This document shows, piece after piece, positions 5,556 to 21,535 of a DNA stretch of 21,535 nucleotides. Positions within the stretch are counted from its first letter, which is position 1; each line of letters begins with the position of its first letter. The DNA is from a virus. The stretch covers positions 1 to 21,535 of IMG/VR virus record IMGVR_UViG_3300029989_000170; one strand, given 5' to 3'. The notes under the pieces are model-generated. The model did not search any database and had not been told where the DNA came from. It saw nothing but the letters and a program-made list of their open reading frames with translations. A program made the translations under genes and the position numbers.

Positions 5556-6362
5556 ATGTCACAAATTAGAATACTCACTGAAACTGACCCGGTTATATTT
5601 TATAACTTGGTTCAAAATCTGACCACACAGCAGAAATCAAATGTGCGCACGAGCATTGCAGCCATGCCAGCAAGCGGTATTCATGGCAATGTGATTCCTA
5701 GAATGAATTACGGAGCTCTGGAATCCACGCTGTTAACGGCTAATTTAGAAAACGTTTATTTGAATGGACGCACGGTTTTTCAGAACATAAATAACTCTGT
5801 TTATTTTGGGTCAACTGATTACGATTCCCGTTTAGTCGGTAATAATCTCTCGATGTATGGCGCTGCCACTTTCTCGCTGCAAGTGGCAAGTGCAACTATA
5901 TTTACGGCAAGTGATTCGCTAGTCGAACTAAAACGCCCATCGAGTAACGTTCAAAAGCTATCACTCGGTATTAACGTTACCAAGCTGGCACACTCGGCTA
6001 GTAAGTTGCTCGACTTAAATAATACTTACGGGAATGTTATTTTGAAATATTCCGATACTCAGTTCTTATCATTCGGCTCAAATAACACACTTGCCTTTTC
6101 TGCAACCGACCTTATTCAGTTAGGCAGTGACCAAGGCGGAGGACATCACCTGTACATTCAAAGCTATAATGGTGTAGGTTATCGTGGAGTAGTAGAAATA
6201 GGCACGCAAAGTGGCGAAACGTATATTGGTAACGGCACTAATGCCAACCTGATGTTAAACACTGACTTTTCAACAGCAGCCTATTCAGTATATGTAAAAA
6301 ATTCTGCAGGTTATTTGACTCAGATGGAAAAGTCAGTATTTAAAGCATGGTTAAATTCTTAA
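5556..6362 (+). CDS. Probable tail fibre or fibre-tip protein
   Basis: This 268-residue protein is rich in Ser, Thr, Asn and Gly, with short repetitive beta segments such as NVYLNGRTVFQNINNSVYFG and LFSGSNN-like runs, a composition typical of trimeric fibres. The N-terminus (SQIRILTETDPVIFYNLVQNLT) could be the attachment helix. The C-terminus ends NSAGYLTQMEKSVFKAWLNS, resembling the conserved ends of Bacteroidetes phage fibres, though I cannot place it in a named family. It lies between two tail genes with gaps of only 2 and 16 bases. No chaperone, lyase or peptidase motif is seen. Confidence 0.5.
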   Translation: MSQIRILTETDPVIFYNLVQNLTTQQKSNVRTSIAAMPASGIHGNVIPRMNYGALESTLLTANLENVYLNGRTVFQNINNSVYFGSTDYDSRLVGNNLSMYGAATFSLQVASATIFTASDSLVELKRPSSNVQKLSLGINVTKLAHSASKLLDLNNTYGNVILKYSDTQFLSFGSNNTLAFSATDLIQLGSDQGGGHHLYIQSYNGVGYRGVVEIGTQSGETYIGNGTNANLMLNTDFSTAAYSVYVKNSAGYLTQMEKSVFKAWLNS

Positions 6363-10772: not shown

Positions 10773-10998
10773 CCCATAATTTCAACTGATTTGGATCGGC
10801 CGCTGGCTTTTCATCCGCTTCGTTCAAATATCGCCAAAACGTTCGCTCGCTAATACCAATTTCAGGCGCAATTTTCGTTCTAAACACTGCAAGCTTACAT
10901 TTATCGTAACGGCCTTGTTCGTAATTAGCCTTTAGTAGCTCTTTAACGCGCTTGGCATTAACCAAGGTGCTCTTTTGTTTTGCGTGAGGTTTAGACAT
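10762..10998 (-). CDS. Small helix-turn-helix-like protein
   Basis: This 78-residue basic protein has a C-terminal half that reads like a helix-turn-helix: FRTKIAPEIGISERTFWRYL, with the GIS turn and a recognition-type helix. The N-terminal part (SKPHAKQKSTLVNAKRVKEL) is strongly basic. It may bind DNA, for example as a small phage regulator or packaging helper. Its end (DAP) comes from a REP-like repeat, so the original C-terminus may differ. It sits in the leftward accessory run between the HAD-like gene and the 88-residue gene. Confidence 0.5.
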   Translation of the reverse strand: MSKPHAKQKSTLVNAKRVKELLKANYEQGRYDKCKLAVFRTKIAPEIGISERTFWRYLNEADEKPAADPNQLKLWDAP

Positions 10999-11031
10999 TT
11001 AATTGGTATTTAATAGGTATTTAAACTCTTA

Positions 11032-11080
11032 TATTCCCCCGCAATTTATCCCGATTTGTCGGGAGGGGGTTAGGGGGCAT
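11032..11080. repeat. REP-like element, copy 2 of a perfect 49-base direct repeat
   Basis: This is identical to 10724-10772 and in the same orientation. It sits directly against the 3' end of the HAD-like gene. The 11001-11022 stretch before it also holds a short ATTGGTATTTAATAGGTATTTAA-type near-repeat. Confidence 0.9.
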
Positions 11081-11464
11081 TCACTCTGCCCATTGATCAG
11101 CTACGGTTGGCAGTCGTTCGTGAACCTCGTTATATATCTCATCCCATGCAGGCATTGGTTTTGGTCGAGATTTATCATCAATATACATATCCGCATAAAT
11201 TTTACGCGTGTCCAATCCGCTAAACTCATCCACATTTGCCTGACTGCTTTCGTTATATTTATCGAACAAAATTCCATTTTCGCCTAAAAACTGTGCAGCC
11301 TCAGCCAGTCTTTTCTCTGTGCGGCAAGTCCACAATATCAGAAAATAACCCTCTGTTTTCAGTTTTTGAATATTTTCTTTTGCCCCCGGTATCAAGTTCC
11401 CGATGCCGGGAAAACGATCCTCTACGATTGTACCGTCAAAATCAATTGCTAGTATTTTGCTCAT
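11081..11464 (-). CDS. HAD-superfamily phosphatase-like protein
   Basis: This 127-residue protein has the HAD motif I, ILAIDFDGTIVED, near its N-terminus (residues 4-16). Motif II-like LILWTCRTEKRL follows at about 42-53, and a late DMYIDDKSRPKP could supply the acidic motif IV. It is shorter than typical HAD enzymes and lacks a large cap domain, like the small HAD proteins found in several Bacteroidetes phages. A hydrolase acting on a nucleotide or a small phosphate ester is likely, but the substrate is unknown. The start overlaps the end of the preceding gene by 23 bases, showing operon coupling. Confidence 0.75.
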   Translation of the reverse strand: MSKILAIDFDGTIVEDRFPGIGNLIPGAKENIQKLKTEGYFLILWTCRTEKRLAEAAQFLGENGILFDKYNESSQANVDEFSGLDTRKIYADMYIDDKSRPKPMPAWDEIYNEVHERLPTVADQWAE

Positions 11465-11606
11465 ATAAGTCTATTTTTTGTTGCTTTAATTCCTCTATTT
11501 CTTTTTTAAAATCCCTGTATTTTGGTGACGGATAAAACGAAAACTCCGTTAACCACTCAATCTGAGAATCTATCTCTAAAATGCTGCAAGCCGTCGTCTT
11601 TGTCAT
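11442..11606 (-). CDS. Small hypothetical protein (54 residues)
   Basis: The frame is open further upstream, but the earlier codons run through a REP-like repeat. I take ATG at 11606 (MTKTTACSILEIDSQIEW) as the start. The end (DFKKEIEELKQQKIDLYEQ) is a charged helix. It overlaps the gene upstream by 50 bases and the HAD-like gene downstream by 23 bases, so it is part of one leftward transcript. No family is recognised. Confidence 0.45.
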   Translation of the reverse strand: MTKTTACSILEIDSQIEWLTEFSFYPSPKYRDFKKEIEELKQQKIDLYEQNTSN

Positions 11607-12018
11607 ATACTTTGTTTTCAAGTTCTCCGCCAGCTGGCGGAGGGTTAGGGGGCAATTCTTTAATATATTCATTCAGCTTTTCAATAGTAAATATCCCATG
11701 ATCTATCGACCGATATTTATACTTTCCAAAATCAATAATCGTTTTTTCTACAATTCCGCCCCGCTGTGAGGCAGTGAAGAAACATATCCGGTAATCCTTC
11801 AAATCAATGCCACTCGTGCGCATATCGCGGAACAACTTGCCAATACTGAAGATATAACCGCACTCTGTATCTACCACATTTTTCCATCCTAAAAACTTCC
11901 ACTCTTCCGGCACAACCAACTTTTCAAAGAATTCAGTGCAAAGTTTATTCAGTTCCTCCGCCGTTTTTGCATTTTCGCGCCCCCAGGTGCCTTTACTTTT
12001 GGCCGTGTAGTGTTCCAT
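11557..12018 (-). CDS. Hypothetical accessory protein with REP-encoded insert
   Basis: This is a 153-residue protein if started at ATG 12018 (MEHYTAKSKGTWGRENAK); an upstream in-frame ATG at 12048 also exists. Residues include EEWKFLGWKNVVDTECGYIF and RICFFTASQRGGIVEKTIID, with no motif I can name. The stretch PPNPPPAGGELENKV near the C-terminus is encoded by a CTCCGCCAGCTGGCGGAG palindrome, which inserts about eight residues before the last 16. The start lies 26 bases inside the upstream gene, so translation is coupled. Confidence 0.5.
   Translation of the reverse strand: MEHYTAKSKGTWGRENAKTAEELNKLCTEFFEKLVVPEEWKFLGWKNVVDTECGYIFSIGKLFRDMRTSGIDLKDYRICFFTASQRGGIVEKTIIDFGKYKYRSIDHGIFTIEKLNEYIKELPPNPPPAGGELENKVYDKDDGLQHFRDRFSD
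11625..11652. repeat. REP-like palindrome inside an accessory gene
   Basis: CTCCGCCAGCTGGCGGAG is a perfect palindrome followed by GGTTAGGGGG, the tail shared with the other REP-like elements. It is translated on the - strand as PPPAGGE. Confidence 0.8.
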
Positions 12019-12541
12019 ATCTGAAACTTGTAAAATGAATACATGCAAATGACTTTTTCAAGTCGTAATCTCCTTTTTCAAACCAAACTGAAAAATCATC
12101 ATATGTCAATCCATCATTCTTAGCAATTAGCCTTATTGGCATATACTTCTTTTTCTTTTTATGATCGGTTTTCAGGTAAGCGTAATAAATTTTAGCATTA
12201 TCAAACAAAACTTCCTCAATACCTACACCACTATCCATATCCAGCCGAGCAAACTCTATTTGCTGATTACCTTTTACATAGCGACCTAGCGTATGATACT
12301 TCAGTACAATTACCGCGTTTCCGGCTAAAACCTCATCAATGCGCTTTTTCCAAAGTGGATAATTGCCGCGAAAAGTGGTAATTTTTTTACCCAGTTTAAA
12401 ATCACAAATATCACATTCACCAGGACACTGGCATCCACATGATATTTTTTCAACAAAATTTGTCGGTTGTCCTTTTTTGGAATGGTAAGCCGGATAAGTG
12501 CGACTAACGAATATCACGTATGTTTTGAGTTTCTTTGCCAT
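11993..12541 (-). CDS. Cysteine-cluster protein of unknown function
   Basis: Start chosen at ATG 12541 (MAKKLKTYVIFVSRTYPAYH), giving 182 residues; an ATG six codons earlier overlaps the upstream stop. A compact CGCQCPGECDICDFKLGKKI cluster near residues 35-54 has four cysteines spaced for a metal site. The region after it (ITTFRGNYPLWKKRIDEVLA, NAVIVLKYHTLGRYVKGNQQ) resembles small Bacteroidetes proteins that act on nucleic acid or carry a zinc site, with a conserved R-x(n)-W-K-R-I-x-E-V pattern. No definite family or reaction can be given. Confidence 0.5.
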   Translation of the reverse strand: MAKKLKTYVIFVSRTYPAYHSKKGQPTNFVEKISCGCQCPGECDICDFKLGKKITTFRGNYPLWKKRIDEVLAGNAVIVLKYHTLGRYVKGNQQIEFARLDMDSGVGIEEVLFDNAKIYYAYLKTDHKKKKKYMPIRLIAKNDGLTYDDFSVWFEKGDYDLKKSFACIHFTSFRYGTLHGQK

Positions 12542-12548
12542 AATTAGT

Positions 12549-12773
12549 TTATTTATCATTTATCGCTAAAAAAATATGTTCTGAAATTTCAAATTTCAAT
12601 AATTTTCCTGCTTTCGCATCATTATATGTTTTTCTCTTTTTCGCGCAATTAGCAAAACAATACTCTTCAACAGTAGAAAGAGCCAAATCATCTGCACAAA
12701 TGTGCATTATTTCAATTTTGGTTTTAGCATCAAGCTTTCGCAGTGCCGATTCTTGTTTCTCTGTAAGTGCCAT
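12549..12773 (-). CDS. Small hypothetical protein (74 residues)
   Basis: Start taken at ATG 12773 (MALTEKQESALRKLDAKTK); an upstream ATG at 12791 is possible but lies inside a palindrome. The protein is helical and carries three cysteines (CADDLALSTVEEYCFANC). It ends FEISEHIFLAINDK and its stop overlaps the alternative start of the next gene. It is the first gene on the left side of the cassette-like array and shows no attC-like site of its own. No family recognised. Confidence 0.45.
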   Translation of the reverse strand: MALTEKQESALRKLDAKTKIEIMHICADDLALSTVEEYCFANCAKKRKTYNDAKAGKLLKFEISEHIFLAINDK

Positions 12774-12825
12774 AATTTCAACATTTTGCACATTTGTGCG
12801 TTTTTAAAGGTACGCATAGCGGGAT

Positions 12826-12834
12826 GTTAGGTGC
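12826..12834 (-). repeat. Half attC-like site at the end of cassette A
   Basis: On the - strand GCACCTAAC (12834-12826) contains the stop codon of the gene and matches the RYYYAAC core. It is the exact complement of the GTTAGGTGC that opens the same unit at 13424-13416, as expected for a cassette's own ends. No complementary right half is visible leftward, so this site appears truncated. Confidence 0.5.
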
Positions 12835-13396
12835 AAGATAAAGAAACGCACCTTTGTGCAACTTCGACAAGCCATTTGGCAAGGTCAATTGGTGTTGATT
12901 CCCGTTCATATTGTGTGACTCTTGGTTTATAACCGGCTTGTCCTTTTCTTGCCGTATTTGTGATTACATATTCGATTAAATCAAACTTAATCGGAATGTC
13001 AGGTAAATTATTTTTTTCACAGCCAACTATGTATAATAGCGTTTTCTTTTCGGCTCTATGTCCCCACCAACTTTGATTTACACATAATGTATAACCTCCA
13101 TATTCGTCTACTTGGTTGCCGGTTGGTAAATTCATTTCTTTCCATAATCTGGAAGCTCTTGGATGCTCTAAAACTCCACCATATTTTCGGATTTGATTGA
13201 TTGCATATATGGCAAGTTCTTTTTCTCCTTCTCTTGGTTTTGCAAAGTGGCTGAGCTGTCCCCACGCTCTGCATGGTGGATGTGCTACAATTGGATTTCC
13301 ACCAGTCCAGTTCAAAGCATTTCTTTTTATATCCCAGCAGTCTAAACCCATTGTTTTATAAATCGAATCTTCTCTTGTAAATAAAATTGATACCAT
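12827..13396 (-). CDS. Cassette gene A: PPC-motif protein, possibly methyltransferase-related
   Basis: This 189-residue protein starts MVSILFTREDSIYKTMGLDC. The middle holds IVAHPPCRAWGQLSHFAK, with a PPC motif like the catalytic loop of cytosine-5 DNA methyltransferases. A GGVLEHPRASRLWKEMNLP segment follows, which is also seen in PPC-motif phage proteins. The usual cofactor motif (FxGxG) is missing, so it may be a stand-alone or degenerate relative, and activity is uncertain. The stop codon TAA lies inside the GCACCTAAC core site, a typical feature of integron cassettes. The final residues (RCVSLSCT) are encoded near the cassette end and may not be native. Confidence 0.6.
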   Translation of the reverse strand: MVSILFTREDSIYKTMGLDCWDIKRNALNWTGGNPIVAHPPCRAWGQLSHFAKPREGEKELAIYAINQIRKYGGVLEHPRASRLWKEMNLPTGNQVDEYGGYTLCVNQSWWGHRAEKKTLLYIVGCEKNNLPDIPIKFDLIEYVITNTARKGQAGYKPRVTQYERESTPIDLAKWLVEVAQRCVSLSCT

Positions 13397-13417
13397 TTTG
13401 AATAAAGATTATCCAGC

Positions 13418-13511
13418 ACCTAACACACGGCTATGTGTCAGGCTGGTTATGTATAAGTTTGAAGCTGTTGTTCGGTTAATCCGCCCGAACACATAGCCTA
13501 ATTCGTTATCG
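13418..13511 (-). repeat. attC-like site of cassette B (94 bases)
   Basis: On the - strand the left core CGATAAC (13511-13505) overlaps the genome-side end of cassette B. The right core GTTAGGT (13424-13418) fits GTTRRRY and opens the next unit. Between them GGCTATGTGT and ACACATAGCC are perfect 10-base arms, extended imperfectly. The short spacers and the asymmetry are as in attC sites. Confidence 0.6.
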
Positions 13512-13515
13512 TGCA

Positions 13516-13800
13516 TTATAAAAAGAAACGACGCCAGTGCGAAACTTCAACTGCAATGCGTTTTTTAGCCCCGTCATAATAAAATAAATGTCCTATTCGA
13601 TAAAGAATCATTATTCCATGATAGTATGTTTTACACTCAACTTCTGTGTTTTCTGTAGGCATATCTTCCTCTATAGGAATCCAACTTAATTTTTCCTCTA
13701 ACCATTCTTTGTAGTTTTCTAAATCATAATGCTTGTCAGCTTCTCCAATTGTTTGTGGATTTTCTGCTCTGAATTGTTCTTCGAATTTGAATTTTGACAT
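13516..13800 (-). CDS. Cassette gene B: small DUF551-like protein
   Basis: Start chosen at ATG 13800 (MSKFKFEEQFRAENPQ), because the upstream ATG at 13854 lies in the preceding attC-like site. The protein has 94 residues. The segment WIPIEEDMPTENTEVECK and the end VSHWRRFF resemble DUF551, small proteins common in phages and cassettes with 'W.P....P' and 'HW' ends. Function is unknown. It is a single-gene unit flanked by attC-like sites, and its first and last core sequences (TTATCGTG and CACGATAAC) are complementary. Confidence 0.6.
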   Translation of the reverse strand: MSKFKFEEQFRAENPQTIGEADKHYDLENYKEWLEEKLSWIPIEEDMPTENTEVECKTYYHGIMILYRIGHLFYYDGAKKRIAVEVSHWRRFFL

Positions 13801-13845
13801 AATTGTAATTTTTTTATAGTTTGAATCAAGAAAGAAATAACGACA

Positions 13846-13978
13846 CGATAACATCTAACTATCAGCATTAGGCTGTTTATTAGCATTTAGAAGTGTTCGC
13901 TCCCGCTTGAAAATTTGATTAAGTAATAAAGTGCATCGCCCGCTAATCGCCAATTGCTGATAGTAGCGACCGTTATGC
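13846..13978 (-). repeat. attC-like site of cassette C (133 bases)
   Basis: On the - strand the left core GCATAAC (13978-13972) contains the stop codon of gene C. The arms CTATCAGCA and TGCTGATAG are perfect 9-base complements, extended by ATTGGC against GCCTAAT. The right core GTTATCG (13852-13846) opens cassette B. The long loop is larger than in the site next to it. Confidence 0.6.
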
Positions 13979-14407
13979 CCAATATTGTAAAAAGACCGTA
14001 TCAGAAGGCTCATAGCTATTTGCCTTATATTTTTCTCCTTCATACAAGCTAATAAATGGACAATTAATGTCTAATTCCCTCCACTTCGCAATTCCTGCGT
14101 TTACGACTTCTTCAAAAGTGTCGAAACGGTTAGTAATAGCAATTTCTTTATTTGCTTCAGACCGAATAAAATCTCTTTGATAAAATCCTCCACCTTCTTT
14201 TTTGTCAAGTTTTTTAGCAAATTCTAACGTAAGAGGTCTAAAAATCTCTATTTTTGTTCCTAAATGGTTTACATTCCATTCTTCAACATTATTTATATCT
14301 ACGTTTTCTTTTTCGGACAATATTAAATGTCCATAGACGTGTTCTGCGTCACCACATTGACCAGCCCACGAAGTAATGTTTAATATAACCAAGAAAATAC
14401 GTGGCAT
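13973..14407 (-). CDS. Cassette gene C: hypothetical protein (144 residues)
   Basis: Start chosen at ATG 14407 (MPRIFLVILNITSWAGQCGD), directly after the TT of a likely cassette boundary; a longer frame would begin at 14473, inside flanking repeat DNA. No signal peptide or named motif is clear. The protein is rich in charged residues (GHLILSEKENVDINNVEEWN, FRPLTLEFAKKLDKKEGGGF) and has a conserved-looking end (ISLYEGEKYKANSYEPSDTV). Its stop lies in the attC-like left core. The family is unrecognised. Confidence 0.55.
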   Translation of the reverse strand: MPRIFLVILNITSWAGQCGDAEHVYGHLILSEKENVDINNVEEWNVNHLGTKIEIFRPLTLEFAKKLDKKEGGGFYQRDFIRSEANKEIAITNRFDTFEEVVNAGIAKWRELDINCPFISLYEGEKYKANSYEPSDTVFLQYWA

Positions 14408-14440
14408 AATACACGCCTCACCCGCAATGGTGGGCTGTGT
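14404..14440 (-). repeat. Possible degenerate attC-like site before cassette C
   Basis: ACACGCCTCACC (14411-14422) and GGTGGGCTGTGT (14429-14440) can pair imperfectly (about 9 of 12) around a six-base loop. Next to it the - strand reads A then TTATGCC, where an intact site would have GTTATGCC. TTATGCC is complementary to GGCATAA in cassette C's own end core. No clear TAAC left core is seen. Confidence 0.35.
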
Positions 14441-14452
14441 GCAATCTTGAAT

Positions 14453-14502
14453 GTTATTTACTCGTTCTATCATTTGTGTTATTTTGAAAGTTATTTACTC
14501 GT
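14453..14502. repeat. Two copies of GTTATTTACTCGT beside the reverse transcriptase fragment
   Basis: The 13-base word occurs at 14453-14465 and 14490-14502, the same way round, with starts 37 bases apart. It lies between the last cassette boundary and the broken reverse transcriptase, so it may mark a junction. Confidence 0.6.
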
Positions 14503-14523
14503 AATCCACCACATGCGGGTAGC

Positions 14524-15120
14524 CTAAGTCGTGTCATCAGCGTATCGGTAATAATACTTAACACGCTTGTCTTCTTTCATCCAGTGGTCGAAATAACTTA
14601 GATACAAATTAGCCAGGAACTGACTCAAGTAATTTCCGATCGGAACACCCGGTGCGCTGTCAATAATCTCATCAAGTAATTTAAAAAGCCGTATATCCTT
14701 TATTTTCTTACGGACAATCGCCTTCAGTATCTCGTGGTCAATGCTCGGATAAAACTTCCTTATATCCATTTTCAAACAGTATTGAGTGTTTTCAACGTCC
14801 TTTAAATCCCGTTTCAAATGCACTAAAACACCGTTTATTCCACGTCCCTTTATACATGCGTATGTGTGAGAAATGAAAGTGGAAACCCATATTTCACCAA
14901 CCACATTCATAATGGCGTGATGAACGACTCTATCACGGAATGGTAGGCGGTACACGTCGCGCTCTTTGGGGTCGTAAATCTTGAAAACACTGTATTCCGA
15001 AGTATGGTAGCACCCGCTTATTAATTCGGCCTGTATCGCCTCCATATTACTTTCAAAATTCTTGTCAAAGAGCACAACACCGTACGATTTTGCTTTTCCC
15101 TGTTTCGCCTTCAGGTACTT
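14524..15120 (-). pseudogene. Diversity-generating retroelement reverse transcriptase, truncated at both ends
   Basis: The homologous reading starts near 15120 (KYLKAKQGKAKSYGVVLFDK); there is no in-frame ATG and a stop lies just upstream of this frame. The family is clear. YRLPFRDRVVHHAIMNVV, YACIKGRGINGVLVHLK, the motif A segment KMDIRKFYPSIDH and the motif B segment GVPIGNYLSQFLANLYL are present. IGxxxSQ in place of QGxxxSP is a hallmark of DGR enzymes. It ends YYRYADDTT then stop, so the palm end and thumb domain are missing. About 199 codons remain of a usual 300-400. This enzyme copies the template repeat to the target, but this copy is almost certainly inactive. Confidence 0.85.
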
Positions 15121-15214
15121 CGTTGAATTCAGGAGTTACCGGCATGCCGGTTGCATTCAAAGCATCGTCTATTGTTTTGATGCTTTCCATTGGTGCTACT
15201 TCTTGTTTTTCCAT
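15065..15214 (-). pseudogene. Truncated second variable-protein-like gene fused to the RT remnant
   Basis: This is a 49-residue frame starting MEKQEVAPMESIKTIDDALN. The run IKTIDDA resembles IKTYEDA in the intact neighbour, and both encode a TPEF stretch (15 identical bases, AACTCCTGAATTCAA). From GEVPEG-like codons on, it reads out of frame into the RT remnant (KIVRCCAL). The simplest reading is that a deletion removed the rest of this gene, any template repeat and the RT start. If it is expressed it would be a non-functional peptide. Confidence 0.5.
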
Positions 15215-15243
15215 GTGTGAAAATTGTTAGTGCCTTTCGGCGG

Positions 15244-15714
15244 TTATTTAATAAAATCTGAATACAGTGATAGGAATTGTTCGCCGGCATATTTTGCCAA
15301 TTCAGAACTTTTAAAGCAAAGGCGCGAGGCGCCACCCGCACGCGCACTCGAGCGACCGTAACCCGTAGCGCTGAAAACGAAGCCCCCGGAAGACACTTTA
15401 AACCAGGGAAACCATTTGTATTGATTTGTGTCAAGCATATCAAATACTTCATCTTCATTAAGTGCCTTAGTAATTGTTTTTAGTTTTCGGTAAGTGATTT
15501 CATCAGCTGTGAAACCAAGTTCTTTTAGCTTCTTTTCGTCTATTGGCTCTTCGCCAAGCTCAGAGCATGCATCCTCGTATGTTTTAATACGATCAGTTAT
15601 TTTACCGGAAAAGAATTCTTTTCCAAAAGTATCTTCAAGGGTAGCCTTGAATTCAGGAGTTGCATCCTTATACAACTTCCTGGCATTTTGCTCTGTAATC
15701 TGTAATTGTTTCAT
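15244..15714 (-). CDS. Candidate DGR target (variable) protein
   Basis: This 156-residue protein starts MKQLQITEQNARKLYKDATP and has a helical N-terminal half. The C-terminal third begins KWFPWFKVSSGGFVFSAT and ends SRLCFKSSELAKYAGEQF, resembling Bacteroidetes phage variable proteins of the lectin-like type. The stretch between, encoding GYGRSSARAGGAS, is low in A and high in G/C compared with the gene, as expected where template adenines have been replaced. It lies next to a DGR reverse transcriptase. The protein probably sits on a surface or binds a ligand, but this is inferred from DGR targets in general. Confidence 0.65.
   Translation of the reverse strand: MKQLQITEQNARKLYKDATPEFKATLEDTFGKEFFSGKITDRIKTYEDACSELGEEPIDEKKLKELGFTADEITYRKLKTITKALNEDEVFDMLDTNQYKWFPWFKVSSGGFVFSATGYGRSSARAGGASRLCFKSSELAKYAGEQFLSLYSDFIK
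15316..15397 (-). other. Candidate variable region (VR) with GC hairpin at its 3' end
   Basis: On the - strand this 82-base stretch has about five A (hand count, about 6%) and about two thirds G+C, unlike its surroundings. It ends with a hairpin, GGCGC-CTC-GCGCC (15333-15321), where DGRs carry an initiation-of-homing signal. The matching A-rich template repeat was not found in the window. Confidence 0.5.
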
Positions 15715-15720
15715 GTTCTT

Positions 15721-15987
15721 TTATTTTTCTACGTTGTATAAAATTTCAAAATCGTCGTTTCCCTTTGTAGGATCAGGTAGAATTCTAATTGATCTGTATT
15801 TTAGCATATCATGCTTAGGATCGTAATTCACACTCATTTCTCCAATGCAGATACGCATTTCTTTCAGACGGTGAAAGCTAACCAATATGACATCCGGGTT
15901 ACACTTTCCTTCACCTCTTATATATCGTTCACGGATTGCATCGTTTATATGCATCCATAATTTTCCTGTAAATTCTTGTAGTTCCAT
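15721..15987 (-). CDS. Small hypothetical protein (88 residues)
   Basis: This starts MELQEFTGKLWMHINDAIRE and contains ILVSFHRLKEMRICIGEMSV and KYRSIRILPDPTKGNDDFEI. No family is recognised. It ends six bases before the start of the DGR target gene and is preceded closely by the 94-residue gene, so it belongs to the leftward operon that also delivers the target protein. A DGR accessory (Avd-like) role was considered, but the basic helical bundle pattern of Avd is not evident. Confidence 0.5.
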   Translation of the reverse strand: MELQEFTGKLWMHINDAIRERYIRGEGKCNPDVILVSFHRLKEMRICIGEMSVNYDPKHDMLKYRSIRILPDPTKGNDDFEILYNVEK

Positions 15988-15998
15988 ATCTGCTGATA

Positions 15999-16283
15999 TT
16001 ATTTATCTTCCCAAACTCCTTTATTTAAACTACACATCCATTGTCCTACAGGCTCAACTAAATCATAGATGTGTTCGGCTTCAAAATCTTTACTAAAAAT
16101 GTTCTTATAGGCTGTAAGTGTTATTTTAAAATCATCCTTTTTCAAAACATAATTGTCAAGTACTAGAAGCATACAAGAAAAGCCCATCACCTTTTTTAAT
16201 TCCTCCTCATGAATTTTTTTTTCGTGAAGTTCATTTGCCTGTTGGCGATTGGCTTTTCTTTGAAGTTGTTTAACCGACGGCAT
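15999..16283 (-). CDS. Small hypothetical protein (94 residues)
   Basis: Start chosen at ATG 16283 (MPSVKQLQRKANRQQANELH); a start six codons earlier is possible. The first third is a strongly charged helix. It is followed by VMGFSCMLLVLDNYVLKKDD and a C-terminus with YDLVEPVGQWMCSLNKGVWE. It overlaps the end of the DUF4494-like gene by 14 bases, so translation is coupled. It resembles small phage proteins of the early block, but no function can be named. Confidence 0.5.
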   Translation of the reverse strand: MPSVKQLQRKANRQQANELHEKKIHEEELKKVMGFSCMLLVLDNYVLKKDDFKITLTAYKNIFSKDFEAEHIYDLVEPVGQWMCSLNKGVWEDK

Positions 16284-16704
16284 CGTACACGTATAAATCA
16301 ATTATCGGAGTTTCCGTAATAGCTGCTATTTCATAGTCAGCCATTGATCCTTTCATCCCTTGCACTATTCCCTCGTTGGCTTCTTTAGTATCGCATGCCT
16401 GAACTAGCATTGTTGAAGGTATTTTGCGTTCAACTCCTTTTTCTTCGTCAAGAGAGATAAAGTTTACCTTTGCGCGATACCATTTATCACCATTTTCATT
16501 GAAGAACATTTCATTGATTTTGGCACGTTTAATTGCCACTACCGTAAATTCTCCGCTAATAAACGGTTCCATTTCTTTGTTAATCCGTGCCTCTGCTTCC
16601 GAAAAAGTCAAAGCATCCACCAAATACGATTCAGTTACTTTTACGATCTTACCCTCTTCCGCAGTTTTCTCGTACTTAATTTTACATTCAAACCAGTTGT
16701 GCAT
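16270..16704 (-). CDS. DUF4494 domain protein
   Basis: This 144-residue protein matches DUF4494, a family common in Bacteroidetes chromosomes and phages. It starts MHNWFECKIKYEKTAEEGKI and continues with VTESYLVDALTFSEAEARIN, EPFISGEFTVVAIKRAKINE and VQGMKGSMADYEIAAITETP, which follow the family pattern closely. Its length fits. The biochemical role is unknown. It is a good taxonomic clue for a Bacteroidetes host. Confidence 0.85.
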   Translation of the reverse strand: MHNWFECKIKYEKTAEEGKIVKVTESYLVDALTFSEAEARINKEMEPFISGEFTVVAIKRAKINEMFFNENGDKWYRAKVNFISLDEEKGVERKIPSTMLVQACDTKEANEGIVQGMKGSMADYEIAAITETPIIDLYVYDAVG

Positions 16705-16720
16705 GTTGTTTTTGTTTATG

Positions 16721-16751
16721 CTTTTCCAAAGTTTCTTTTACTTTGGAAAAG
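16721..16751. repeat. CTTTTCCAAAGT palindrome, copy 1
   Basis: CTTTTCCAAAGT and ACTTTGGAAAAG are perfect 12-base arms with a seven-base loop. It lies between the DUF4494 gene and the preceding small gene. A close copy is at 20215-20246. Confidence 0.85.
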
Positions 16752-16773
16752 CTGATTATTATTAAATTTAAAA

Positions 16774-16980
16774 TCAATTCTTTGGTAGTTTCCATCCGTT
16801 CAGTCGGTAGGTTTCTGTCCTGGCTTCCTCTTTGGTGGCAAATTCGGCCACTTTCGTTCCGATACTGCCATTCTCAAAGTAGGTCATTTTATCAACCCTC
16901 CACCAACCAAAATGGAAGTAATATTTATATTCGGGATTCCTTCTTACTCCCAATTTAGGGGGACGGGGGGCTTCATTCAT
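16774..16980 (-). CDS. Small hypothetical protein with REP-encoded N-terminus
   Basis: This is a 68-residue protein. Its N-terminal MNEAPRPPKLGVRRNPEYKY runs through a C/G-run palindrome, so the native start may be inside, but no later ATG precedes the conserved-looking YYFHFGWWRVDKMTYFENGS. The C-terminus (TKVAEFATKEEARTETYRLN) resembles short phage proteins with a single alpha-beta fold. It overlaps the end of the Gam-like gene by eight bases. Confidence 0.5.
   Translation of the reverse strand: MNEAPRPPKLGVRRNPEYKYYFHFGWWRVDKMTYFENGSIGTKVAEFATKEEARTETYRLNGWKLPKN
16947..16970. repeat. REP-like C/G-run element at the start of a small gene
   Basis: ACTCCCAATTTAGGGGGACG, starting at 16946-16947 and followed by a further GGGGG, matches the CCCCC-TTTAGGGGG core in a diverged form. 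It encodes the PRPPKLG run of the small - strand gene. Confidence 0.55.
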
Positions 16981-17485
16981 TCTCCTTTTTAGGTTCTACA
17001 AAAAAGGTTTCGTCCTGAGCCACCGATATTCCAACTTTAGGAAATAATGTTGCAACCTCTTCAAGTTCCCGATCGGCAAGCAATTTATCTTTTGCTGGCT
17101 CTTCGCTGATGCGTACGTAAGTTGGTAGAAATTCTTTTAGCAGGTTAGTTACCGCTGGCCATGTAAAGCCTTTAAGAGTTTTTAGTTTTGGAGTTCCGGT
17201 GCGGAATCCGATAGTACCGTGCACGCTTTCCATACTCTTTTTCTTTCCGAAAAGGTCGTCCTTATTTTCCACCGCAAACGCCTGAAGCACATCAAAGGCT
17301 TTGTCTTTTTTCTCAATAAGTTTCGCAATATCGTCGGCATATTTCTCACGTATTTGAGTCATCGCTACGTCGATAGTTGCATTTATTTTCTGAAGCTTTG
17401 CGTCTGCAATTGCATATTCGCTGAAGGCAGCTTCCATTGTTTCACTCGTCACACCTGTGTGGACTACTTTTTTCTCTCTTGCCAT
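16973..17485 (-). CDS. gam: Mu Gam-like host-nuclease inhibitor
   Basis: This 170-residue protein has the Gam pattern: a coiled helix with ADAKLQKINATIDVAMTQIR, then KYADDIAKLIEKKDKAFDVL, then HGTIGFRTGTPKLKTLKGFT (GTIGFRTG is the family hallmark). It ends with an acidic tail. Mu Gam binds double-stranded DNA ends and protects them from host exonucleases. The start at ATG 17485 begins MAREKKVVHTGVTSETMEAA. It lies in the early operon downstream of the gp16-like gene, as in related phages. Confidence 0.85.
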   Translation of the reverse strand: MAREKKVVHTGVTSETMEAAFSEYAIADAKLQKINATIDVAMTQIREKYADDIAKLIEKKDKAFDVLQAFAVENKDDLFGKKKSMESVHGTIGFRTGTPKLKTLKGFTWPAVTNLLKEFLPTYVRISEEPAKDKLLADRELEEVATLFPKVGISVAQDETFFVEPKKENE

Positions 17486-17793
17486 AATTTTTTTATTTTA
17501 TCAGTTATCATTATATAAGTCATCGGAATTATGAGAATCACAATCAGCAATAAAGCTTCGTACCATTTCATATATTCAAAATCGTCATAATCATCATAAT
17601 CATAGCAATAATCATTAACTTTTTTGAAAACTCTTTGAGGACAACAGCAAATCACTTTTACGTTAGTACACCCGATTATTGGATTACTCAAGTCACAAGC
17701 CACACATCCAAAAGTACTTTCTTCCGATAAGTAAAGCTGACCGTCGATCAGTCTCGTTTCTCCCGGAGGTATATTAATCAGATTCTTGCTCAT
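17464..17793 (-). CDS. Small Cys-rich membrane protein
   Basis: Start chosen at ATG 17793 (MSKNLINIPPGETRLIDGQL), giving 109 residues; the longer frame from 17862 overlaps another gene. Cysteines cluster in FGCVACDLSNPIIGCTN and VICCCPQRVFKK, possibly a metal or disulfide site. A strong membrane segment near the C-terminus (ALLLIVILIIPMTYIMITD) is followed by basic residues (KIKKLWQERKK). It overlaps the start of the Gam-like gene by 22 bases. The function is unknown. Confidence 0.55.
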   Translation of the reverse strand: MSKNLINIPPGETRLIDGQLYLSEESTFGCVACDLSNPIIGCTNVKVICCCPQRVFKKVNDYCYDYDDYDDFEYMKWYEALLLIVILIIPMTYIMITDKIKKLWQERKK

Positions 17794-17929
17794 TTTCCAA
17801 CTCCTCCTCCAGCCTTTTGAGTTCTGCAAACTTTCGGTCGTAATCAGGGTGATCAATCTCATTGTTTTCGAGCCATTCAGTTAGCTCCTCTAGCGTTGTC
17901 GGCGTAGCGACAGTTTGTTGTTCTTGCAT
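17774..17929 (-). CDS. 51-residue acidic helical protein
   Basis: This is a short gene with ATG at 17929 and stop TAA at 17776-17774. The product starts MQEQQTVATPTTLEELTEWL and continues NEIDHPDYDRKFAELKRLEE, ending in an acidic helix (ELENEQESD). It starts five bases after the stop of the gp16-like gene and overlaps the next gene by 20 bases, the same coupled spacing seen through the operon. No family recognised. Confidence 0.5.
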   Translation of the reverse strand: MQEQQTVATPTTLEELTEWLENNEIDHPDYDRKFAELKRLEEELENEQESD

Positions 17930-17934
17930 TTTTA

Positions 17935-18390
17935 TTAGTTTAAAATTGTTAGTTTATTCATTAACTCATCAGTCATGTCACTTACAATGCTTATGTCTTT
18001 CTGTTTTTTGCTGAAAGCATAATACAGGGAATTCAATTTCTCTTTTGGAATAGTATTAAATCGTATATCCACGCCGTAACCTTCAGGAACATCGGCCGCA
18101 CGACAGGCAATGGCTTTTACCTCCGTTGCAGTAGTTACGCAACCTAACGCCTTACGCCATCCGTAAATTGAAGCCATTAGCCTTTTCCTGAGCTTATCCA
18201 ACTCATCCGATCCCGGTGTGAATTGTTTCTCAATAGCCTCACAAAGTTGCAGCAAGTCATTAACTCCAAGTTCCGTGGAGCTTTCAGCCCCAAACCCAGC
18301 CAATAAGGCTTCTTTTGCTTCATTGCTGATTTTATACTTACTCAGCAATATATGAAATCGCCTTATAAGGCTTTTTTGTGTAATTTCCAT
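17935..18390 (-). CDS. Mu gp16/GemA-like early protein
   Basis: Start chosen at ATG 18390 (MEITQKSLIRRFHILLSKYK); a second ATG at 18399 is possible. The 151-residue protein follows the pattern of Mu gp16 (DUF1018)-type proteins: an N-terminal helical part ISNEAKEALLAGFGAESSTE, then ASIYGWRKALGCVTTATEVK, a region often seen before a conserved end. It comes before the Gam-like gene, as gp16 does in many Mu-like phages. The function of gp16 is not well known; a regulatory role has been suggested for GemA. Confidence 0.6.
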   Translation of the reverse strand: MEITQKSLIRRFHILLSKYKISNEAKEALLAGFGAESSTELGVNDLLQLCEAIEKQFTPGSDELDKLRKRLMASIYGWRKALGCVTTATEVKAIACRAADVPEGYGVDIRFNTIPKEKLNSLYYAFSKKQKDISIVSDMTDELMNKLTILN

Positions 18391-18410
18391 TGTTTTCATT
18401 TCCGTGTCTT

Positions 18411-18593
18411 TTATCTGTAAAAAATGTGTTTAATTTCAACGTATCCTGTCTTATTCTTAGCGCAATAACTTTCGGCTTGTCTTCGAGTTTTAAATTGTAA
18501 AACACTTCCTTTACCATCTTTACTGGTTTTCCAACCGCCTTCAGGAGGCATGTCGATAATGTTAAATACTGTAACTGTAGTTATTTTTTTCAT
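18411..18593 (-). CDS. Small hypothetical protein (60 residues)
   Basis: Start taken at ATG 18593 (MKKITTVTVFNIIDMPPEGG), since the longer frame overlaps the ATPase gene. The sequence has SVLQFKTRRQAESYCAKNKT, a pattern like small phage proteins with a single alpha-beta fold. The gaps to its neighbours are about 20 bases, so it is in the same transcript. Family and function are unknown. Confidence 0.5.
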   Translation of the reverse strand: MKKITTVTVFNIIDMPPEGGWKTSKDGKGSVLQFKTRRQAESYCAKNKTGYVEIKHIFYR

Positions 18594-18613
18594 TTCCGTG
18601 TATGTGTTAATTG

Positions 18614-19252
18614 TTATTTTTCCATTCCGGGGCGTTTTCCCCAATATTTCAAAGCCTTTTCCGGCCATATATCATATTCCTCTTTTGGTCCTTTGTATCT
18701 TCCATGACTAAAAGCTCTGTAGCCATCAACATATATTTTCAAACCGGCATCGAATTTTACAGACTTTGCGCTGCGCCCTTCAGGGCTTTTGCCATCGGCA
18801 TGGCTAATAAATATCAGCAGTTTATCAGGAAATTGCTCTTTAAATCGGATATACTCCTTATAATTTATCTGCATGTACTGAAATGAATCAATTATCACTA
18901 TCCGGTGCGATTGCTTCATTTTAAGCCGCGTTGTTAAGTCATCTATCCCCTCATTTACAAAATGCACTTTGCTTTTACCTACATCGCGCATGTTGAAGTT
19001 TATAAGGCTCTTTTGAAGTGTGTGCCGTGTACCTTCCTCCCGGCTATTTACCAGCACTTTTTCAAACTTCGCCAGCTCTTTAATCATTTGGATAATAAAG
19101 CTTGTCTTGCCATTACCCGCATTTCCCCACACAAACCAAACTCCACTCATTTCCGGCTTATCGAAGGCCTCAAACCAATCGCCTGTAAAATCTATTAATT
19201 TGTATTTTTTTTCAAGTACGTTATCAACCGTTAGTGCTCGTTGTAGTGCCAT
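18614..19252 (-). CDS. RecA-fold/AAA-type ATPase of the early block
   Basis: This is a 212-residue protein with a Walker A motif GNAGNGKT (residues 43-50) and a Walker B-like RIVIIDSFQ (117-125). A later loop, SHADGKSPEGRSAKSVKFDA, resembles the sensor loop of RecA/DnaB-type ATPases. The start (MALQRALTVDNVLEKKYKLI) follows a short gap after MuB. In Bacteroidetes Mu-like phages such a second ATPase commonly lies next to MuB; it may help DNA targeting or replication restart. The role is inferred, but the ATPase call is firm. Confidence 0.75.
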   Translation of the reverse strand: MALQRALTVDNVLEKKYKLIDFTGDWFEAFDKPEMSGVWFVWGNAGNGKTSFIIQMIKELAKFEKVLVNSREEGTRHTLQKSLINFNMRDVGKSKVHFVNEGIDDLTTRLKMKQSHRIVIIDSFQYMQINYKEYIRFKEQFPDKLLIFISHADGKSPEGRSAKSVKFDAGLKIYVDGYRAFSHGRYKGPKEEYDIWPEKALKYWGKRPGMEK

Positions 19253-19300
19253 TTAAAACCCATTTAAAAATCATTTAAGCATAAATCTATTATTTCCATC

Positions 19301-20197
19301 TCATTCCCCCTTTAGGGGGTTAGGGGGTCTTTTCATACTCCGCTGAAATGCCTGACATTTCTTCTTTACTCTTCTAAGATCACCTTCAGAGTCTTCAATA
19401 ATTTCGCTTATGGTTTTATTATCGGTAATTTCATTGGCCATACATACGGCGGTAATGTCAGCAGCCGTTAATCCATTCAGTTCAATAAACTTTTTACCAA
19501 GGCGACTCCAAATTTCACGAAACCCTTTTTTGTTTTTTGTTCTGCCGTCCTCAATTCTTTTTTGGAAATACGATGTAGAGGCCATAATTATTGAGCAATA
19601 ATCTTCAAGCTCGTTATATAGAGTAATAAAGAAATATAGCAGGTCATCGCTCAACTTGTCAACCTCATCAATCATAATAATTGGATCGGGTTGACTTTTT
19701 AGAGTAGAAATAATTTCTTGCATCATTCTATTAATATTTTTTCCGTCAGGCTCTTTTCCTAACGCATGAAGAAGTTCAATGCACAGTTGTTTTTTATTCC
19801 AATAATCAGAGCATTTAAGAAGGTATGCGTATTGCTCTTTTTCAAAAATTTTCAAAAATTCTGTTTTACCAATTCCGGCATCACCAATTATTGAACTCAC
19901 ACCGTGATTATCTTTGTGGTCTGCTATTACCGTTTTTAATCGCCGGCTAACGCTTGTTTCAGCATAATTCCATTTTACAAACTTATGTCCAATCTGAACG
20001 CCAACCTGCCTCCACATTTCGTCACTTATCAAATCCCAAGTGCCACCTATCATGTGACTTATTGTGGCTGAACTTACATTCTTAAGCGAGTTAGCTGCTT
20101 TATTTTGTCCTTTATCTTTTATTCCGCCATCCGATGAATATCGTAGGCAATAAGATATTAATGTTTCTACAATCTGTTGTTTTTGTGTTGTTTCCAT
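19301..20197 (-). CDS. MuB-like transposition ATPase
   Basis: This is a 298-residue AAA+ protein that would bind target DNA and stimulate MuA. The N-terminal helical part (METTQKQQIVETLISYCLRY through QNKAANSLKNVSSATISHMI) reads like the helix-turn-helix found in MuB. Walker A is GDAGIGKT (residues 105-112) and Walker B IIMIDEVD (173-180), followed by an arginine-rich RLGKKFIELNGL region. The last residues PPNPLKGE come from a REP-like palindrome. It directly follows the transposase gene, as in Mu. Mu MuB is about 312 residues, so the length fits. Confidence 0.85.
   Translation of the reverse strand: METTQKQQIVETLISYCLRYSSDGGIKDKGQNKAANSLKNVSSATISHMIGGTWDLISDEMWRQVGVQIGHKFVKWNYAETSVSRRLKTVIADHKDNHGVSSIIGDAGIGKTEFLKIFEKEQYAYLLKCSDYWNKKQLCIELLHALGKEPDGKNINRMMQEIISTLKSQPDPIIMIDEVDKLSDDLLYFFITLYNELEDYCSIIMASTSYFQKRIEDGRTKNKKGFREIWSRLGKKFIELNGLTAADITAVCMANEITDNKTISEIIEDSEGDLRRVKKKCQAFQRSMKRPPNPLKGE
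19304..19330. repeat. REP-like palindrome at the 3' end of the MuB-like gene
   Basis: TTCCCCCTTTAGGGGGTTAG, followed by GGGGTCT, encodes the last residues of the MuB-like protein on the - strand (PPNPLKGE). Confidence 0.85.
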
Positions 20198-20214
20198 GTG
20201 TGTGTTGTATTTTT

Positions 20215-20246
20215 CTTTTCCAAAGTTTCTTTCGACTTTGGAAAAG
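20215..20246. repeat. CTTTTCCAAAGT palindrome, copy 2
   Basis: The same 12-base arms as at 16721-16751, with an eight-base loop. It lies between the MuB-like and transposase genes and may form a hairpin in the mRNA. Confidence 0.85.
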
Positions 20247-20251
20247 TTAGG

Positions 20252-21535
20252 TTAATAGATATTATATGGGTTATTATCTTCCGGTACATCTTCCACCGGT
20301 GCGCCCTTCAGTTTTCCGGTGCTCACTCGTCCGGGTAGCTCTTTCCGTCCTTTGTTTCGGTTATTTTTATGTTGTCCTTCCGAATCTGTCAAGCAGAATT
20401 TTTGAAGCGTATCATTCTGAAGCATCATCGGAACTACCGAAGCCATTTTAAGTATATTTTGCTCCCTGAAATCAGCGACTTGTTTTTCGAGCGATGCATT
20501 AAACTCTTTTACTTTTTGAAGTTCACCGCTATCACCAGGCTTTCTGTCTTTTAGTGCCATTGGCTGCGTGTATGGCTTTTCTAATAGGAATCTAAGCGAC
20601 CGGTCATCATTTACCGCCATTACTTTTGTCATGTCTGTAGGGTCAAAAAGGATGGTCCAACTTATATGATCGTAATTTCTAAAAGCCAAATTAAAACAGT
20701 CCCATGTATATTTTATTCCGTCAATAGTTTTATGCACTCCTGAAGCTTCGCGCTGTACTGTTTTTCCTTTTGTTGTTCCAAATGTCAATAAATAGTTTTC
20801 TATCGACATTTCAAGTTTATCATCTTCCGATGTCGCTGTCCACATGCTCATGTATTGATCAATCTTTTTGGCACGTTCTTTTTCTATTATTTCGGCAAAT
20901 TGCTTACAAACGCCTTCAAAATCAGGGAAATCTTTCTTATATTTGTTTAGAAATTCCACATTTGGTTGACTTTCTTTGTCCGACGTTACGCCATAACCGC
21001 TCCAGTTCTTTTCCAACTGGCAATAGTCATGGTTTAGCTTATAGAAAAATGGTTCAATAACTTTCGTTTTGGCGTTGTGAGCTTTTGCAGGAGTACTTAT
21101 ATGTGCAACCGCTTCGTAAAACGGGGTCATTTTCTTGATACCATAACGATCGCTCTGTACCTGATGGCTTCGGTGCATTTTACCGAATAACTTAGCGGTA
21201 TGGCACATTGCATTTCTTAAAGCCTGTGCAATTAGTTCAGGAGTTTCGTGGGTTCCAAGCGCGTACCCTAAAATATACTTCACGCAGGGGTCGAGAACTA
21301 TTACAGCCGTTGGGCGTTCGTGGTAGGTCGTTTTTTTGCCATCAAATTCCTGATACATCAACTCTACATCCCATCCGTCAAGTGTTAGGTAGTAAAGCGG
21401 AGCGGTAGGGGCTGAGCGATGCACTTGCATTGTTTTTTTATTTCTGAATGCAGTACCTCCGCGGCGACCGGCATAAATCATTGTTTCATTTTTCTGTCGC
21501 CATACAGCCACAGCCGATGATGTGATTTCCTTCCA
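20252..21535 (-). CDS. MuA-like DDE transposase (5' end outside window)
   Basis: This is the C-terminal part of a Mu-type transposase, the enzyme that joins phage ends to target DNA. The frame is open to the window edge. About 427 codons are visible, while MuA is 663 residues, so the N-terminal DNA-binding part is missing. The probable catalytic triad is visible: D in YLTLDGWDVEL, D in HQVQSDRYGIKK and E in AKTKVIEPFFYKLN. Segments after it (AVNDDRSLRFLLEKPY, the KVKEFNASLEKQVADFREQN helix) match the mu-transposase C-terminal beta barrel and helical tail that contacts MuB. It heads the leftward early operon with MuB next to it. Confidence 0.88.
   Translation of the reverse strand, partial: WKEITSSAVAVWRQKNETMIYAGRRGGTAFRNKKTMQVHRSAPTAPLYYLTLDGWDVELMYQEFDGKKTTYHERPTAVIVLDPCVKYILGYALGTHETPELIAQALRNAMCHTAKLFGKMHRSHQVQSDRYGIKKMTPFYEAVAHISTPAKAHNAKTKVIEPFFYKLNHDYCQLEKNWSGYGVTSDKESQPNVEFLNKYKKDFPDFEGVCKQFAEIIEKERAKKIDQYMSMWTATSEDDKLEMSIENYLLTFGTTKGKTVQREASGVHKTIDGIKYTWDCFNLAFRNYDHISWTILFDPTDMTKVMAVNDDRSLRFLLEKPYTQPMALKDRKPGDSGELQKVKEFNASLEKQVADFREQNILKMASVVPMMLQNDTLQKFCLTDSEGQHKNNRNKGRKELPGRVSTGKLKGAPVEDVPEDNNPYNIY

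Follow-up and report, generated by a model that had tools for sequence, protein, structure and literature searches.

General Features of the Locus

The DNA analyzed here (IMG/VR virus record IMGVR_UViG_3300029989_000170; the whole stretch of 21,535 nucleotides is referred to as the window) belongs to a Mu-like phage of Bacteroidota. Profile matches identify a MuA-type transposase (phrog_310), Gam (PF07352), and a Mu portal protein (PF06074), and relatives of the transposase are found in Bacteroidales genomes. From 12826 to 14409, the minus strand holds three one-gene units, A, B, and C, which are separated by hairpin sites and whose genes are all co-directional with the leftward early operon of the phage. 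The features of the region are as follows (R2 and R3 are covariance models described below).

11993–12559, minus strand: flanking phage gene phrog_8581, common to relatives, a marker of the left boundary region (profile match and relatives)
12812–12834, minus strand: outer end of cassette A, with core GCACCTAAC and an arm resembling site 1, the other half-site missing (inverted repeat I1, 80% over 30 nt)
12826–13422, minus strand: body of cassette A between cores TTAGGTGC and GCACCTAAC (sequence; 9-nt core complementarity)
12827–13396, minus strand: gene A, 189 aa, phrog_12600, C5 DNA-methyltransferase-like fold (profile match and predicted structure)
13418–13511, minus strand: site 1, between cassettes B and A (R3, 28.4 bits, E 4.3e-5; R2, 23.6 bits, E 0.0039)
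13425–13851, minus strand: cassette B, cores TTATCGTG and CACGATAAC (9-nt core complementarity)
13516–13818, minus strand: gene B, 100 aa, DUF551-like (score just below the Pfam cut-off)
13846–13978, minus strand: site 2, between cassettes C and B (R3, 42.3 bits, E 1.5e-8; R2, 25.7 bits, E 0.0014)
13853–14409, minus strand: cassette C, cores TTATGCC and GGCATAAC (7-nt core complementarity)
13973–14473, minus strand: gene C, an orphan ORF of 166 aa from an in-loop start at 14473 or 144 aa from 14407
14409–14537, minus strand: site 3, upstream of cassette C and abutting the broken RT gene (R3, 31.2 bits, E 8.4e-6)
14534–15115, minus strand: truncated DGR-type reverse transcriptase (RT), broken at YADD, where the array landed (in relatives the RT is intact and accompanied by a template repeat and two variable repeats)

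A first-pass annotation of the window had read this region as a gene-cassette array of integron-like kind, lacking an integrase, within a Mu-like phage; our analysis supports that reading: the transposase, Gam, and portal genes are present, the three minus-strand units each carry one gene as drawn, and the opening core of each unit is, as claimed, complementary to its closing core (TTAGGTGC/GCACCTAA in A, TTATCGTG/CACGATAA in B, and TTATGCC/GGCATAA in C). Each cassette's own R' and R'' ends are complementary over 9, 9, and 7 nt in A, B, and C, respectively, so that the rule for circular integron cassettes holds; cassette-end runs in real integron arrays are mostly 8–14 nt. The stop codons of genes A and C do lie within the core, and that of gene B lies 10 nt before it. 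No IntI gene was found in the window, again in agreement with the annotation. Both palindromic sites that it listed are real, but its count was wrong, since R3 identifies a third at 14409–14537.

Cassette Genes

The predicted fold of gene A is nearest to C5 cytosine methyltransferases (M.HaeIII, E 1e-3, with a structure model of moderate quality), and its family, phrog_12600, is present in phages of several host phyla. For gene C the structure prediction is unreliable (pLDDT 46). This gene may start at 14473, within the loop of site 3, instead of at 14407. A loop-encoded start, MIER.N, is common to gene C and to a gene at 15047 of another phage, L105, in which the gene starts in the loop of a site and reads through its arm; gene C probably does likewise.

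The first-pass annotation had proposed a search for other genomes in which genes A, B, and C stand beside attC sites. DNA and protein searches of 395 Bacteroidota genomes returned nothing for the three genes, and gene and site searches of phage and plasmid collections yielded only homologues of gene A, in phages, where no sites flank them.

The Insertion Locus

The array occupies the place of the 3' half of a decayed DGR reverse-transcriptase gene. Comparison with relatives places the end of the RT at YADD, exactly where the array starts; neither the template repeat nor either end of the RT survives in the window phage. The relatives (L006–L012) carry an intact DGR, with an RT, a template repeat, and variable repeats that differ at template A positions. 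Their RT is intact from the position equivalent to 14534 onwards, a different gene stands at the array's place, and they hold no cassettes; the same genes and spacers were thus not seen in them without the palindromes, an occurrence that the annotation had named as telling against cassettes. The DGR region spans 14534–15714 in the window and is intact at 7700–9430 in L006, 6860–8040 in L009, and 6560–7740 in L011, where it comprises the template repeat, variable repeats in adjacent genes, the RT, and a 118-aa accessory gene. The junction between RT and array is real, because an independent contig from another metagenome (L014) is 100% identical over 13525–20430, junction included. The RT was rejected as the driver of the array, whether as a DGR or as a group II intron: RT and template repeat are relics in the window, and relatives with an intact DGR have no array.

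At site 3, RT sequence has taken the place of the RT-side outer core. On the plus strand, the array would end on this side at the predicted cleavage point (between ...AAG and TCGTGTCATC), a position that would fit an insertion at a specific site, after which the 3' end of the RT was lost. Around the array's left edge, short palindromes are repeated (GCACAAATGTGC, GCACATTTGTGC, and GCACCTTTGTGC, at 12694–12706, 12787–12799, and 12846–12860); these are possibly operator-like.

Structure of the Hairpin Sites

AAC...GTT core boxes are present in sites 1 and 2, and the core of site 3 is degenerate. Same-side extrahelical bases are absent from the window sites and from the family to which they belong (see below), in which long stems carry wobble positions or bulges on either side. 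Strict boxes left most real Bacteroidota attC sites undetected, and thresholds were reset on bona fide sites. The resulting structure scan, for which genuine attC sites of Bacteroidota IntI loci served as the training set, places its best hits in phages TJE1 and P12002L in their CALIN regions, the attC sites of which have been tested experimentally (PMC9892861). Its top hit in the window is site 2, at 38.1, and no shuffle (4.3 Mb) reached 36. Two other high scorers were rejected: the hairpin at 6242–6356 as a coding-region hairpin, and that at 1793–1859, between two late genes, as a CCCCTAAAGGGG-type palindromic repeat, which mimics attC in simple scans.

In a cassette-pair test, which asks for two structured sites whose cassette ends match over 8 nt or more, the window contains one pair, sites 1 and 2, and none of 240 dinucleotide-preserving (first-order Markov) shuffles contains any. 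Of 40 known integron loci, 17 give a positive result in this test; of 20 phage or prophage loci, only TJE1 does. Sites 2 and 3 have unexceptional folding energies, and an Rfam search gave no match.

A Separate Family of Sites in Bacteroidota

Three covariance models were compared. R1, a model of classical Bacteroidota attC, scores the window sites at 7–10 bits (E 1–6) and held-out classical sites at 22–84 bits; as R1 also misses the validated attC sites of TJE1 and P12002L, this result alone decides nothing. The second model, R2, was built solely from two other phage arrays, L105 and L179, and its two best hits in the window are sites 2 and 1. R2 hits at E ≤ 0.1 in 22 loci, many of them standing in arrays that obey the cassette-end rule, supplied the 83 chromosomal and other-phage sites from which R3 was made with the window excluded. 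R3 finds exactly three sites in the window at E ≤ 1, namely sites 1, 2, and 3, all on the minus strand. Of 20 control regions, 17 were searched with R3, and its only match there was a weak one (E 1.4 for a search of 709 kb). It also hits classical attC weakly (15–25 bits) and on the matching strand, which indicates that the two types of site are related.

Among the 83 sites, 392 doubly changed cells were counted, compared with 161 ± 13 in shuffles, and 16 of 21 pairs change on both sides. Two G.T positions are fixed in the family, the outer in 66 and the inner in 81 of the 83 sites; on the complementary strand these would form C.A mismatches, roughly at the positions of the extrahelical bases of classical attC. 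In the window the inner G.T pair is kept in sites 1 and 3 and absent from site 2, which makes these sites divergent members of the family; the outer pair is absent. The window sites belong to a separate Bacteroidota site family and are not standard attC.

R2 sites occur in at least 76 of 395 Bacteroidota genomes (scoring was limited to eight candidates per genome, and such counts are therefore minima). Fifteen of the 76 also have IntI (odds ratio 0.62, p 0.15), and the family shows no association with genomes that encode IntI. The IntegronFinder 2.0 paper (PMC9024848) describes integrons as rare in Bacteroidetes; in our sample an IntI match at E ≤ 1e-70 was found in 106 of the 395 genomes, in 105 of them above the curated cut-off.

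Cassette Arrays in Other Phages

The family recurs in at least four other phages, L105, L179, L192, and L213 (the last two matched by R2), all of which carry cassettes different from those of the window. When the cassette-pair test was run on 158 related phage loci (1.85 Mb), it detected chained arrays in L105/L106 and in L179; it is also positive in chromosomal arrays. L105 and L106 are one phage in two assemblies, which is not Mu-like and which encodes RecT-like and NinG-like proteins by ORF reading. On the 53.7-kb L105 contig at least 10 cassettes stand in a row from 9103 to the contig end at 16100; several encode methyltransferases, and the record contains no recombinase. L179 is Mu-like, and its array includes a C5 methyltransferase cassette and one duplicated cassette, which suggests recent cassette activity. 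The two copies lie within an array spanning 10867–13987, with ORFs at 11087 and 13433.

Gene polarity differs between chromosomal and phage arrays. Of the 44 cassette genes in seven chromosomal arrays (among L289–L301), 42 are oriented opposite to the model strand of the sites, whereas all 13 genes of L105 and L179, and likewise the three genes of the window, run with it. The phage arrays are thus not simply copied pieces of chromosomal arrays.

A Candidate Recombinase

We scanned 735 kb of array and flanking DNA for IntI-like proteins and found near the chromosomal arrays a recombinase family whose members are 37–50% identical to each other. Nine loci in eight genomes gave strong hits of 237–478 bits (L290, L298, L303, L307, L308 [partial], L310, L311, L313, and L326), several of them kilobases from the nearest site. 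Four of the nine, themselves picked near arrays, went into the model, which makes their scores circular. The remaining five provide independent scores, although L326 is a near copy of L298 in the same genome. IntI proteins score 167–211 bits against this model and other Xer-like proteins mostly less than 165 (two related L309 copies score 203 and 165). The family was found neither in 350 kb of control regions (a small control) nor in 2.2 Mb of phage loci, and G122, G273, and the remaining array loci gave no strong hit within the DNA examined. In nearly all cases the recombinase gene lies on the 3' side of the sites' model strand; that of L298 lies between two site clusters. The proteins of L298 (14466–15920) and L326 (4461–5966) have an N-terminal extension of about 200 residues, and the other forms are 275–306 aa long.

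In alignments these recombinases lack the IntI-specific insertion of about 31 residues with its KYP/WQ.FP motifs, and against the IntI profile TIGR02249 they score 184–217, below the cut-off of 265. A passage of PMC8138268 citing MacDonald 2006 holds the insertion to be essential for integron function, and in classical IntI the alpha-I2 helix contacts the second extrahelical base (PMC3053210). The joint loss of insertion and extrahelical base would be consistent with a changed mode of recognition.

Origin of the Array

We think it probable that the array consists of phage-borne cassettes of an IntI-independent, integron-like Bacteroidota system and that a host recombinase moves them in trans. 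Each cassette comprises one gene and one site, and the site, when single-stranded, would fold into a long hairpin whose core is AAC/GTT. Cassettes would be joined by recombination between the G and the TT, which would leave the two ends of any one cassette complementary to each other. The enzyme is likely to be an IntI-related tyrosine recombinase that lacks the IntI-specific insertion and is encoded beside host chromosomal arrays; it would act on the sites and, in trans, on phage DNA, with the phage genome as target. The array would have landed, presumably by site-specific insertion, in the already decaying DGR locus of the early operon and would be transcribed from the phage's leftward early transcription.

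The strongest competitor, which we consider possible but somewhat doubtful, is that an array fragment entered by illegitimate recombination during DGR decay and is now a dead fossil, with no continuing cassette movement in the phage. The terminal sites do lack their outer halves, the phage has no recombinase, and the landing locus is itself decayed. Yet all three reading frames are uninterrupted and point the same way as the early operon, four other phages hold different cassettes, one of them duplicated in L179, and the RT-side junction appears to lie at the predicted cleavage position. It seems unlikely that the phage carries a CALIN of ordinary integron cassettes, whose attC sites have diverged and which a classical host IntI moves. 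The cores, the hairpin plan, and the cassette-end rule are the same, CALINs are known in phages (PMC9892861), IntI occurs in 106 of 395 Bacteroidota genomes, and R3 hits classical attC, if weakly. Against this stand the absence of same-side extrahelical bases, the lack of association between the site family and IntI genomes, and the poor R1 scores of the window sites, a point tempered by R1's failure on the validated TJE1 and P12002L sites.

Two trivial explanations carry very little weight. The window is a metagenomic contig and could in principle be an assembly chimera of a phage and a bacterial array; this is highly improbable, as the RT junction has an identical counterpart in an assembly from a second metagenome, and phage genes bound the array on both sides. 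Still less credible are chance palindromes or transcription terminators: the hairpins at 1793–1859 and 6242–6356 do score well in the simple structure scan, and two sites fold with unexceptional energies, but the absence of a cassette pair from all 240 shuffles and the matching by R3 of these three window sites alone refute that reading.

Comparison with Known Systems

The first-pass annotation regarded an array of this kind in a transposable phage as new or rare. Phage-borne attC clusters without an integrase had already been published: Qi et al. 2023 (PMC9892861) reported 17 CALINs among 10,705 phage genomes. The window array shares with these its one-gene cassettes, AAC/GTT cores, hairpin sites, lack of an integrase, and methyltransferase-like genes. 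It differs in that its sites are of another family, without same-side extrahelical bases, in that its gene polarity is reversed relative to the site, and in that its host phage is Mu-like. An earlier integron-bearing prophage, Shewanella phage M16-3, is apparently not a Mu-like precedent; it has a phage integrase gene and is named apart from Mu-like prophages.

With classical integrons (IntI, attI, and attC, including those of Bacteroidota chromosomes) the system has in common the array architecture, the complementarity of cassette ends, and a recombinase gene at one end of the chromosomal arrays, which is often transcribed divergently from those of the cassettes. Folded integron attC sites are expected to carry extrahelical bases on one side (PMC3053210); the family sites have two fixed G.T positions and no association with IntI genomes, and the array-linked recombinases are without the IntI-specific insertion. 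The best named profile for these recombinases is that of XerA (NF040815; 198–237 bits, cut-off 220). Unlike XerA and the other Xer types (XerC and XerD), they adjoin cassette arrays, and in a small tree they form a clade of their own (support 0.97).

Because the sites, and probably also the recombinase, differ from those of known integrons, Bacteroidota and their viruses may share a second gene-capture system. To a more specific proposal we give about an even chance: that this is a second, IntI-independent class of Bacteroidota integron, with a recombinase lacking the alpha-I2 insertion and with sites that have two fixed G.T positions (C.A on the bottom strand) in place of extrahelical bases, and that several unrelated phages hold a separate pool of cassettes, with genes inverted relative to the site, served by the host enzyme in trans. 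A cassette system that has apparently lost both this insertion and its contact base would be a test of how recombination of single-stranded hairpins evolved from Xer-type enzymes. Sites of the second type are present in about a fifth of the sampled Bacteroidota genomes and in several phages, and phages are thus likely carriers of cassettes between hosts.
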